Position numbers and translations under genes: made by a program | Notes under the pieces: model-generated | Database searches by the model: none | Told to the model about the DNA's origin: nothing | Seen by the model: only the letters and a program-made list of their open reading frames with translations | NCBI GenBank assembly: GCA_017307865.1 | Contig: JAFKGE010000025.1 | Span: forward strand, 1-64,000 | DNA: 64,000 bases | Reading direction: 5' to 3' | Source of the DNA: Burkholderiales bacterium | GTDB taxonomy: Bacteria > Pseudomonadota > Gammaproteobacteria > Burkholderiales > Burkholderiaceae_C | Shown here: in pieces, positions 4,767 to 8,057 of the stretch | How the letters are laid out: every line of letters begins with the position of its first letter | Position numbering within the stretch: the first letter of the stretch is position 1

Positions 4767-5330
4767 ATGAACCCCAAATACGGACTGCCCAAGAACCTGA
4801 TGGGCTGGGTGGACGCCAACCGCGCCAGCCTGCGGCCGCCGGTCAACAACGCGGCGCTGTTTCCGGACGGCAACTACATCATCAACATGGTGGGCGGAGG
4901 CAACACGCGCACCGACTTTCACGACAACCCGACCGAGGAAATTTTCCACCAGATCAAGGGCACGGCCTACCTCAACATCTGGGACCGTGGCAAGTTCGAG
5001 CGCATCGACCTGAAGGAAGGCGACGTGTGGCTGATGGAGCCGCACCTGCAGCATTCGCCGCAGCGCCCCGACCCCGACGGCCTGTGCTTTCTGGTCGAAA
5101 TGAAGCGCCCCAAAGCCGCCATCGACTCACTCAACTGGTACTGCCCCCAGTGCGCCAGCCTGGTGTGGGGCGCCAGCATGGAGCTGACCGACCTGGTGGC
5201 CGACCTGCCGCGCACCTTCAAGACCTTTTATGCCCTGAGCGACGCCGAGCGCACCTGCAAGCATTGCGGCACCGTGCACCCGGGCAAGGACTACGCCGCC
5301 TGGCACGCGATTCGGCAGGCCCACGCATGA
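4767..5330 (+). CDS. nbaC: 3-hydroxyanthranilate 3,4-dioxygenase
   Basis: This 187-residue cupin dioxygenase opens the ring of 3-hydroxyanthranilate to 2-amino-3-carboxymuconate 6-semialdehyde. The iron ligands are visible as H52, E58 and H96, and the substrate-binding residues as R48, R100 and E111, each offset by one from the Cupriavidus enzyme. The C-terminus has two CxxC pairs (CPQC at 126-129 and CKHC at 164-167) that form the rubredoxin-like second metal site of bacterial members. A good ribosome site (CAGGAGA) precedes the ATG. Its TGA overlaps the ATG of the next gene (ATGA), so translation is probably coupled. Confidence 0.93.
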
Positions 5331-6322
5331 TCGACATTCATTCGCACTTCTTCCCGCGCATCAGCCAGGCCGAGGCGCGCGCGGTCGACGCCGAGCGCGC
5401 GCCCTGGCTCGCGGTCGATGCCGACGGCAAGACCGGCCAGATCATGCTGGGCGACAAACCGTTTCGCCCGGTGCACGACGAGCTGTGGGATTCGGACGCG
5501 CGCGTGCGCGGGCTGGACGCGGCGGGCATCGCGCTGCAGATCGTCTGCGCCACGCCGGTGATGTTCGGCTACGCCTGGGAGGCGCCGCGCGCCGCCGATT
5601 GGGCCACGCGCATGAACGAGAAGGCGGCGGCCTACTGCGCGCCCCACCCCACGCGGCTGCGCTGGCTGTCGCAGGTGGCGCTGCAGGACGTACCACTGGC
5701 CACCGCCGAGGCCGCGCGCGCGATGAAGGCCGGCGCCGTGGGCGTGCAGATCGGCAACCACATGGGCCAGAAGGATCTGGACCACCCGGACATGGTGGAC
5801 TTCCTGATCTTCTGCGCCGACAAGGCCATCCCGGTCTTCGTCCACCCCTGGGACATGATGACCGACGGCCGCATGAAGAAATGGATGATGCCCTGGCTGG
5901 TGGCCATGCCGGCCGAGACGCAGCTGGGCATGCTGTCGCTGATTTTGTCGGGCGCGCTGGAGCGCATTCCCAAGTCGCTGAAGATCTGCTTTGCCCACGG
6001 CGGCGGCAGCTTTGCCTACACCCTGGGCCGGGTCGACAACGCCTGGAAGCACCGCGACATCGTGCGCCAGGACTGCCCCGAGCTGCCTTCCAGCTACGCG
6101 CGGCGCCTGTACACCGACAGCGCCGTGTTCGACCCCGGCGCGCTCAAGCTGCTGACGGACGTGATGGGCTCCGACCGCGTGATGCTGGGCACCGACGCGC
6201 CCTTTCCGCTGGGCGAGCAGCAGCCGGGCTCGCTGGTGCGCGCGTGCGACTTTCTGGGCGCCGAGGGGCAGCGGCGCATCCTGGACGGCAACGCGCGCGC
6301 GTTTTTCGGTTTGGCCGCCTGA
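5327..6322 (+). CDS. nbaD: 2-amino-3-carboxymuconate-6-semialdehyde decarboxylase (ACMSD)
   Basis: This 331-residue amidohydrolase-superfamily enzyme decarboxylates ACMS to 2-aminomuconate 6-semialdehyde, which the dehydrogenase at the head of the operon then uses. The metal site is visible as D3-I-H5-S-H7 (the HxH motif), a central VHPWDMM histidine, FAHGGGSF and the C-terminal GTDAPFP aspartate. The start at 5327 overlaps the stop of the dioxygenase gene. It is the last gene of the operon. With its three upstream partners it takes 3-hydroxyanthranilate as far as 4-oxalocrotonate; genes for the later meta-cleavage steps are not in the window. Confidence 0.92.
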
Positions 6323-6367
6323 TACGGCGTCGCATTCGGAAAGGCAATACTTGCCAGCTGTGGGGTG

Positions 6368-6623
6368 GGATCCCGCCGTCGGGGCGCCCGGCTCCGTTCA
6401 TGTCCCCCACCGGCCTGCGGCCGGCTCCGCCTTCACTTCACTGCGCCGGGCACCCCGACGACGGGATCCGAGGCATCGCGGGCCGAGCAGGCCGCTTGGT
6501 GTGTGAGCGCCGCATCCCGCCAAGGGGCTTGGGTGGGCAGCGCAGCGAGGTCAAGGAGGAGATGGCCGTCGCAGACGGACAGCGGGGGACAGGAGCGGAG
6601 CTGCCCACCCATGCCCCTTGGCG
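6368..6623. repeat. Composite non-coding element: two homologous long hairpins in opposite orientation
   Basis: The 358 bp between the ACMSD and ClC genes hold no gene but two long inverted repeats. Unit A has 25-bp arms at 6368-6392 and 6445-6469 with two mismatches. Unit B has 24-bp arms at 6518-6541 and 6600-6623 with one mismatch. Each encloses an inner hairpin with the same GCA triloop on its own strand: 6410-6424 in A read on the minus strand (CCGGCC/GGCCGG) and 6566-6578 in B (CCGTC/GACGG). Read in that orientation, the two flanking single-stranded segments match between units (18 of 22 and 16 of 19 bases) while arm sequences differ and stay paired. This looks like a conserved structured RNA or a folded-DNA mobile repeat. 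No open frame or transposase accompanies it. Confidence 0.75.
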
Positions 6624-6680
6624 CGCCACCGCCCCCCGCGGTCTCAACGCGCTGCTTGCAATTTGGTATGAACCGGCTGC

Positions 6681-8057
6681 TCAACGGCGGCGCAGGCGCT
6701 CGCGCACGCGCCGCCACGTGGGCAGCACCACCTCGCGCCACCAGCGCAGCAAGCCGTAGGACAGCTGCACCTTCTCGTGCCCCACCGGCTGGTCGGCCGG
6801 CGCGGTGAACCAGGCGGCCTTGGGGTAGGCCAGCTGCTGCGCCGGGTACACGCTGCGGTGGCCGACCATCAGATAGGCCGACACGCAGGCGCCCGCCACG
6901 TACAGCGTGGAGCCGCCGCCGAACAGCTCCACCCCCATCAGCACCGCCGCCACCGGCGTGTTGGAGGCCGAGGCGACCACCGCCACCAGCCCCACCGCCG
7001 CGCCCTGCGCCGCGTGCATGCCCAGCAGTGGCGCCAGCGCCCCGCCCAGCACCGCGCCGATGACGAACTGCGGCGTGACGATGCCGCCGTAAAAGCCCGA
7101 GCCCAGGGTGACCGCCACCAGCACGATCTTGAACGCGAAGCCCAGCCAGGGCATGGCCTCGCCCTGCAGCGCGCGCTCCATCACCGGCAGCGACAGGCCC
7201 ATGTACTCGCGCGGCAGCACGGCCAGCAGCAGCGCCAGCAGCACCCCGCCCAGCAGCGGCAGCAGCGGCGGCCACAGCGCCCAGCGCCGCCCCAGCCAGC
7301 CGAAGCCCTGGCGCGCCAGGTGCAGCGCCTCGACGAACCACGAGGCGGCCACGCCGCACAGCACGCCGATCAGCACGGTCTTGAGAAACAGCAGCTCGGT
7401 GAAGCCGGCGTCGAAGGCGATGTGATATTCGGGATACGGCACGCCCCAGAAGCGGCTGACGACAAAGGCCGTGACGCCGGCCACGATGCCCGGAAACAGA
7501 AAGTCGTGCCGGATGCGGCCGATGGCCAGCATCTCCACGCCGTAGATCGCGCCGGCAATCGGCGTGCCGAACACGCTGGCGAAACCGGCGCTCACGCCGC
7601 AGGCCACCAGGCGCTTGCGCAGCTCGGCGTTCAGCCGCAGCGCCTGCCCCACCCCGGCGGCCACGCCGGCGCCGATGTGCGAGCACGGCCCCTCCTTGCC
7701 GGCCGAGCCGCCGCAGCCCAGGGTGATCAGCGCGGCGACGGGCTTGATCCACAGCGTGGTCAGCGGCATGCGGCCCTGCTGCTCGTTGACGGCCTCGATC
7801 GGCTCGTCCTTCAGGCCGCTGGTGTTCAGCCGATAGCCGTAGTGCAGCAGCAGGCCGTTGGCCAGCCCGGCCGCCGGCAGCAGCGCGGCCAGCAGCGCCC
7901 AGGGCGCGCCGTACAGGCGCCCCTCGCTGGCGAACAGCAGGTGCAGAAACACGCTGCACGCCGAACCCACCAGCGCGCCGGTGAGCATGGCCAGCACCAG
8001 CCACAGGGCAATGGTGGCCAGCATGACCAGGGGTTCGGCGGGGGACAGGCGGCGCAT
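6681..8057 (-). CDS. ClC-family chloride channel / antiporter
   Basis: This 458-residue protein is a ClC-family integral membrane transporter with about ten hydrophobic segments. The gating-glutamate motif is GSAGKEGP (E122), the second anion-site motif is GSGFYGGIVTP, and two helix motifs typical of the family are SVFGTPIAGAIYGVEM and SASNTPVAAVLMGVE. The GSGIP motif expected around residue 80 is replaced by SGLKDEP, so anion selectivity may differ from the E. coli type. The ATG at 8057 was chosen because the in-frame extension upstream is intergenic-looking and would add 74 non-membrane residues. It is divergent from the RND operon with about 200 bp between them; no regulator is adjacent. 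Confidence 0.85.
   Translation of the reverse strand: MRRLSPAEPLVMLATIALWLVLAMLTGALVGSACSVFLHLLFASEGRLYGAPWALLAALLPAAGLANGLLLHYGYRLNTSGLKDEPIEAVNEQQGRMPLTTLWIKPVAALITLGCGGSAGKEGPCSHIGAGVAAGVGQALRLNAELRKRLVACGVSAGFASVFGTPIAGAIYGVEMLAIGRIRHDFLFPGIVAGVTAFVVSRFWGVPYPEYHIAFDAGFTELLFLKTVLIGVLCGVAASWFVEALHLARQGFGWLGRRWALWPPLLPLLGGVLLALLLAVLPREYMGLSLPVMERALQGEAMPWLGFAFKIVLVAVTLGSGFYGGIVTPQFVIGAVLGGALAPLLGMHAAQGAAVGLVAVVASASNTPVAAVLMGVELFGGGSTLYVAGACVSAYLMVGHRSVYPAQQLAYPKAAWFTAPADQPVGHEKVQLSYGLLRWWREVVLPTWRRVRERLRRR

Follow-up and report, generated by a model that had tools for sequence, protein, structure and literature searches.

Inverted hairpin pairs with covarying stems and fixed loops, dispersed in betaproteobacterial genomes, as a candidate signal of folded single-stranded DNA

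This study analyzed a window of 64 kb (the whole stretch of DNA under analysis, the first 64,000 nucleotides of contig JAFKGE010000025.1 of a Burkholderiales bacterium) in which two hairpins follow the 3-hydroxyanthranilate operon, as the initial annotation had placed them. The 3-hydroxyanthranilate 3,4-dioxygenase gene at 4767-5330 is followed by an amidohydrolase gene that ends at 6322, and the downstream neighbor is a convergent CLC channel gene with its end at 6681. Hairpin unit A occupies 6368-6469 on the minus strand and unit B 6518-6623 on the plus strand. An inverted-repeat search recovered both hairpins where they had been reported, as 6368-6397/6440-6469 (87% complementary) for unit A and 6518-6546/6595-6623 (90% complementary) for unit B. 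The borders originally given, 6368-6623, hold for the hairpins but are too narrow for the element as a whole, which extends from 6323 to approximately 6668 in the aligned genome copies. A covariance-model search of the 64-kb window returned only units A and B and a weak antisense image of B.

The window copy is flanked by TGA triplets on the plus strand, which form a 3-bp repeat; the left member (6320-6322) is also the stop codon of the amidohydrolase gene, whose reading frame ends at 6322, and the right member lies at 6669-6671. Between them lie a left terminal repeat of MITE type (TACGG..CGCATTCG; 6323-6339, plus strand), which was defined from the aligned copies and has the same terminus as separate MITEs, and a strongly decayed right terminal repeat of this type (6656-6668, minus strand; p-distance 0.453 over 6656-6672, 36 pairs). 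The left outer segment (6340-6367; mean p-distance 0.241) and the right outer segment (6624-6655; p-distance 0.333) are little conserved among copies. The 48-nt spacer between the units (6470-6517) is likewise not conserved in sequence (p-distance 0.213), whereas its length class is conserved in the family.

Each unit comprises an outer stem of approximately 24 pairs, a long purine-rich internal loop with GNAGYGARGTNAAGGNGGAG on its 5' side and CGGGGGACANGARCGGAG on its 3' side, and an inner stem that ends in a GCA triloop; the triloops had been predicted for both units and were seen in the folds. In unit A, the outer arms (6368-6392 and 6445-6469) enclose, on the minus strand, the 5' loop motif GCAGTGAAGTGAAGGCGGAG (6425-6444), the inner stem with its C(GCA)G cap (6409-6424), and the 3' loop motif GGGGGACATGAACGGAG (6392-6408). 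The arms of unit B (6518-6541 and 6600-6623) enclose, on the plus strand, the 5' loop motif GCAGCGAGGTCAAGGAGGAG (6542-6561), the inner stem (6562-6582, with the C(GCA)G cap at 6571-6573), and the 3' loop motif CGGGGGACAGGAGCGGAG (6583-6600). Alignment of the minus strand of A with the plus strand of B revealed the GCGCAG and GGGGGACA blocks in both, which agrees with the opposite orientation and the matching interiors described at the outset. Before a short GY/RC stem, the units read GCAG, GGAG, AGAG, AAAG, or GTAG. In four variants (L219, L244, L070, and L171), Watson-Crick pairs such as those of GCGAAAT/ATTCGC take the place of the GAA/TGA portion of this loop, a hint that the usual form contains tandem G-A pairs.

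Folding with RNA parameters gave z values of -5.25 (A, minus) and -4.79 (B, plus) against dinucleotide shuffles, and folding with DNA parameters gave -4.00 and -6.10, respectively. The complementary strands of A and B also fold (RNA z, -2.62 and -5.03; DNA z, -2.56 and -4.63); thus, folding energies alone do not choose the strand. A scan of positions 5900-7100 for intrinsic terminators identified two consensus sites, neither of them at the hairpins, and the terminator reading was rejected because no stem followed by a T-run was found there. In ten loci of the hairpin family, every Rfam family stayed below its gathering score, and all matches in the window region up to E = 10 were far below these scores, consistent with the earlier view that no known riboswitch accompanies the hairpins.

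Beyond what one window could show, the element is multicopy in the host genome. Unit A was found in 15 copies (90-100% identity) and unit B in 13 (91-100%), corresponding to 13 places with both units and two partial copies with A alone. The copy alignment, which took in 14 of the 15 unit-A copies, revealed imperfect terminal repeats and ends that the copies have in common, near 6323 and 6668. Divergence was determined from 11 of these 14, since L004 lacks the left end and L006 and L031 lack unit B; divergence was 0-9% in the hairpin parts, 21% in the spacer, and 22-45% in the outer parts. The hairpins are therefore kept better among copies than the spacer and outer parts. Arms and loops follow the same order of divergence in three other genomes, G154 (5 of 8 loci), G194 (6 of 8), and G111 (5 of 7), the motifs of G111 having diverged by 8-14% versus 25% for the spacer. 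The contrast was weaker in G095 (5 of 6 loci), in which the spacer diverged by 10% (0.096), one arm by 9%, and the inner hairpin of A by 12% (0.122). In G111, G154, and G194, the inner hairpins vary as much as the spacers, as would be expected if only the inner fold matters.

The proposal that the stems covary while the loops are conserved was borne out at several levels. Among 22 units from five genomes, gathered with BLAST and a motif rule, both partners had changed in 30 of 35 pairs, compared with a shuffled mean of 22.2. Paired cells made up 95.4%, versus 66.8% after shuffling and 37-41% after sliding. The proportion was likewise 95.4% in 142 distinct units of named genomes, for which shuffles gave 61.9%, and 1484 cells were doubly changed versus 424.5. 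The number of doubly changed pairs in this larger set (32 of 35) is little above that of shuffles (mean 30.2; 16 of 500 reach 32), and its strong measures of covariation are the cells paired and the cells with double changes. Sets A3 and A6 were fitted to the model, and their counts lean towards it; A2 was not fitted.

Compensation was also observed at a single orthologous junction. At hpaE-hpaD, the arms of seven loci are on average only 57-59% identical, yet 328 of 336 cells pair, whereas arms of different species pair at only 67-71%; the loop motifs are 89-94% identical. Among 1008 comparisons, 355 have a change on each side with pairing preserved, and 46 are broken in one. Because the arms have diverged and still pair, compensation occurs in place. 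Template switching within the palindrome could be a way in which one arm is corrected from the other, helping the arms to covary. Taken together, the element is one composite unit that is dispersed and multicopy, with covarying stems and fixed loops.

The identity of the mispairs in the outer stems indicates which strand is kept. On the motif strand, the named set contained 251 G-T versus 24 A-C, a second set contained 159 versus 35, and a set not chosen by the model contained 44 versus 4. This excess of G-T over A-C implies that the motif strand (GAAGTNAAGGAGGAG...GGGGGACATGA) is the one whose pairing is maintained. Strand asymmetry with tolerated G-U pairs would fit RNA as well as DNA, and an alternative reading is a two-way structure of 3' ends or intercistronic regions, in which a transcript from either side carries one sense hairpin; a host RNA-binding protein or RNase would recognize it and thereby protect or process the mRNA.

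The loops of the inner hairpins argue in the other direction. In 203 inner hairpins (distinct per genome or locus, from 216 readable among 271 rows), the C(GNA)G cap occurred 112 times, GNRA 8 times, and UNCG once, whereas C(GNA)G accounted for 0.9% of shuffles. Since this count includes genomes under two names (G147/Albitalea terrae and G095/Comamonadaceae 2FH, with identical flanks), each inner sequence was also counted once, giving C(GNA)G in 90 of 178; 60 of the 80 named loci carry such caps. Control hairpins from the same loci (8520 strands, of mixed loop sizes) had C(GNA)G in 22 cases (0.3%; 22 of 1562 strands among control triloops), GNRA in 0.4%, and UNCG in 0.3%. GNA loops form very stable DNA mini-hairpins (PMC4686876), and for STAXI, UUCG loops were taken as a sign of RNA (PMC2864571). 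The strand asymmetry together with the DNA-type caps thus favors a fold kept as single-stranded DNA rather than as RNA, with the qualifications that the copies are related and that GNRA is mildly enriched as well. Of the two possibilities that the initial annotation had left side by side, a structured RNA or a folded-DNA mobile repeat, it is the second that these data favor.

The units are usually arranged in pairs. The 80 named loci, drawn from at least 120 matching stretches, contained 57 divergent pairs and a single convergent one, 14 other units were solo, and 11 lay at contig edges; these counts and the G-T counts omit two of 143 rows, which are weak antisense images (L168 and L172). The spacer measures 37-59 nt in 52 of 58 pairs (range, 22-118). 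The pairs of G199 are convergent in all four loci fetched, and G147 has a solo unit in 8 of 10 loci; both count against a strict pair design.

We surveyed the distribution of the element with strict filters. Of 150 genomes examined in the bacterial family, 70 had units, representing 67 of 141 genera, and 80 were without a match; at most 26 candidates were scored per genome, and copy counts are therefore lower bounds. By BLAST, only one of 28 same-genus relatives had a match. The combination of wide presence in the family with near absence among close relatives indicates frequent gain and loss. An order-wide draw of 200 genomes yielded seven matches; approximately 195 of these genomes, judged by reading, lie outside the family and account for four matches. 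Hosts among the matches listed include Hydrogenophaga, Rubrivivax, Rhodoferax, Variovorax, Aquabacterium, Caldimonas, Albitalea, Ramlibacter, Rhizobacter, Methylibium, Paucibacter, an Oxalobacteraceae, a Rhodocyclales, Sulfurisoma, and one MAG titled Gammaproteobacteria. Phages yielded no match to the element, and two plasmid records covered 30-38% of the query at 77-78%.

With respect to genes, the element lies at gene ends. Only 2 of 42 placed pairs occupied divergent junctions compared with 44 of 132 background gaps (Fisher p = 1e-4; 16 of the 58 pairs were not placed), and an earlier set (n = 64) included 23 convergent, 34 co-directional, and 3 divergent junctions. In the host genome, 8 of 14 copies sit between convergent genes; gene placement in the host genome and across the family was assigned by a crude GC3 rule. 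Avoidance of divergent junctions is what an RNA element would lead one to expect, as is the position at hpaE-hpaD between two co-directional genes. However, every transcript would also carry the antisense hairpin, at a conserved distance, and solo units of the named set in co-directional gaps were sense in four cases and antisense in one, too few to decide. Given also the dominance of C(GNA)G over UNCG caps and the lack of an Rfam match, we regard an RNA element as possible but less likely than folded DNA.

Furthermore, different genera keep the element at orthologous junctions, which indicates that much of its presence is vertical rather than due to recent movement. This retention, the placement at gene ends, and the constraint within genomes could also suit a site for nucleoid organization or topology that the host keeps where supercoils build, in the manner of E. 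coli BIMEs. In E. coli, BIMEs are bound by gyrase and IHF. The occurrence is nevertheless patchy, both in the family and among the 27 relatives of the genus that have no match, and the arms are lineage-specific; a host-kept topology site is accordingly improbable as an explanation.

The initial annotation had also set the element apart from a plain MITE, in which the hairpins would be passive cargo. This distinction holds for the core but not for the window copy, which lies between MITE-type terminal repeats. By eye, matching TGA/TCA triplets flank 6 of the 9 host-genome copies with both ends readable, and in 8 of 14 copies the gene entering from the A side stops at the terminal TGA, 43-47 bp from the hairpin. 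The hairpin pair of G095 has terminal repeats of the same kind. We then searched the 150 family genomes for the terminal pattern CTSATACGGTYTTGCATTCA with one mismatch allowed and found it in seven, with none for the reversed control among the matches listed. Most of the CTSATACGGTYTTGCATTCA matches belong to a MITE of approximately 102 bp with matching TSA flanks: 14 of 19 rows matched, three places being read from both strands, and the mismatches of L311 and L322 were judged by eye to be right ends misplaced by the script. The model detected a hairpin unit in none of 24 such loci (of 28; four at G095's own copies were left out), and L309, which scored nothing by model, was seen by eye to hold a recombined remnant of the hairpins.

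Conversely, the pair exists without such ends in G111 and G154, where the flanks outside the arms are near unrelated (p-distance, 0.64-0.67), and in G194 (0.45-0.48); single G111 copies show a TSATACGG-like remnant. With the ends found on a separate carrier and the pair found without them in other genomes, the pair is the core, and the window copy has probably travelled inside MITE-type ends that are now decayed. These ends have decayed while the hairpins are conserved, and passive cargo would not covary, as pairs without MITE ends do; a plain MITE is therefore a very improbable account of the hairpins. An autonomous parent in the host genome was also considered and rejected: the left-end pattern with up to three mismatches occurred at eight places, all at element copies. 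At the hemH site, the element was absent in 12 of 12 relatives shown; since their neighboring gene differs, the site is not a clean empty one.

The separate MITE of approximately 102 bp in Comamonadaceae relatives (L304-L331; for example, L312:1503-1620) deserves a note of its own. Its core matches a repeat of Neisseria gonorrhoeae at 84.7% over 57 nt, and that repeat occurs at 20-21 places in each of two records; the match is reminiscent of the Correia element.

We further examined candidates for a protein that moves the element. Inverted hairpin pairs that are dispersed, with conserved ends and a variable spacer, are what a classical REPIN moved by a RAYT (TnpA-REP) would present, and Y1_Tnp genes were found in 16 of 20 element-bearing genomes. 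No association emerged, Y1_Tnp being present in 54 of the 70 genomes that have units and in 58 of the 80 that lack them (Fisher p = 0.57). Nor was there linkage, as none of 21 Y1_Tnp loci had a unit within 1.5 kb on either side; four genomes that carry units (G111, G147, G154, and G194) gave no Y1_Tnp match. Because it was neither linked nor associated, RAYT was rejected as the mover, and a RAYT-moved REPIN is scarcely credible here. In G014, a relative from within the genus, Y1_Tnp matched 20 times, and several of these matches break into two frames at one and the same position of the profile. BLAST clustering of the ORFs within 1.5 kb on either side of 84 loci in 16 genomes identified no travelling gene: the clusters were mostly the element's own reading frames, and the widest other cluster (9 loci, 6 genomes) consisted of ABC-transporter ATPases, as read from their translations.

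Integron attC sites are hairpins of folded single-strand DNA in which the stems vary and certain unpaired positions are fixed. The present hairpins resemble them in these properties but form inverted pairs rather than same-direction arrays. The attC reading was rejected because no GTTRRRY box lies inside the element: the 3102 bases of L001 contain two RYYYAAC/GTTRRRY boxes (chance mean, 2.29), and positions 1501-1757, which hold the element, contain none. REP, REPIN, and BIME sequences, as described in PMC8266576, are inverted, mostly intergenic pairs of palindromes with a linker, and their HUH transposase reads folded single strands and distinguishes between strands. The element resembles them as a dispersed, intergenic, inverted palindromic pair with a linker. 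It differs in its units of approximately 100-130 nt, compared with 20-50 nt, in its long fixed internal loop, in the missing association with Y1_Tnp, and in lacking a constant GTAG ahead of the unit, GTAG being here one of five variants. Terminal repeats and a 3-bp flanking repeat are shared by the window copy with MITEs (PMC10969869), including those of Correia type, in contrast to which the covarying pair also occurs without such ends and stays conserved where they decay. STAXI (PMC2864571) is similarly a repeated structured motif of possible single-stranded DNA but consists of pseudoknot repeats with UUCG loops, in other taxa. The same paper lists a Burkholderiales-1 motif from Burkholderiales, ambiguous as to whether it is RNA and without an Rfam accession; compared through its Table 1 entry, it may be the same element as the hairpin pair.

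On the basis of these findings, the reading that we prefer, with a probability of roughly 0.55, is a REPIN-like, non-autonomous repeat that is recognized as folded single-stranded DNA without a RAYT. We infer that the functional fold is that of single-stranded DNA. When the strands part, during replication, repair, or supercoiling near gene ends, each strand would extrude one rod-like hairpin, capped by the stable C(GNA)G mini-hairpin, and a putative protein would bind the purine-rich internal loop. Two inverted signals approximately 45 nt apart may allow two subunits to act together, most likely in copying or moving the unit, as is thought of TnpA-REP with REPs. MITE-type ends (TACGG..GCATTC, with a 3-bp TSA target repeat) would have brought the pair in, landing at the stop codon of the upstream gene.

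Neither the literature searched nor Rfam yielded a catalogue entry or a description of the paired hairpins. More tentatively, and with some doubt, the element might be the first to be described in a class of single-strand-DNA recognition elements that work with a putative protein partner of their own and stand apart from the RAYT, integron, and IS200/IS605 systems. Dozens of betaproteobacterial genera would then maintain the element, which might contribute to replication, repair, or gene-end topology in addition to its own spread. The family is large and easily recognized within one bacterial family and has no Rfam match. It is also unusually clear in that its sequence statistics speak for a fold of DNA rather than RNA, with compensatory change in place at an orthologous junction. 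It thereby offers a direct handle for finding a new DNA-hairpin-binding protein.

Two minor observations were made among the loci. L221 (against L155) and L309 are single hairpins that resemble recombinants, with the arms of one unit and the inner hairpin of the other. In addition, a second dispersed palindrome of the genus, of the AGCTGCTTGCGC...GCGC..GCAGCT type, lies at gene ends and was seen at the left flanks of L002 and L029 and beside hemH in L276, L277, L282, and L285.
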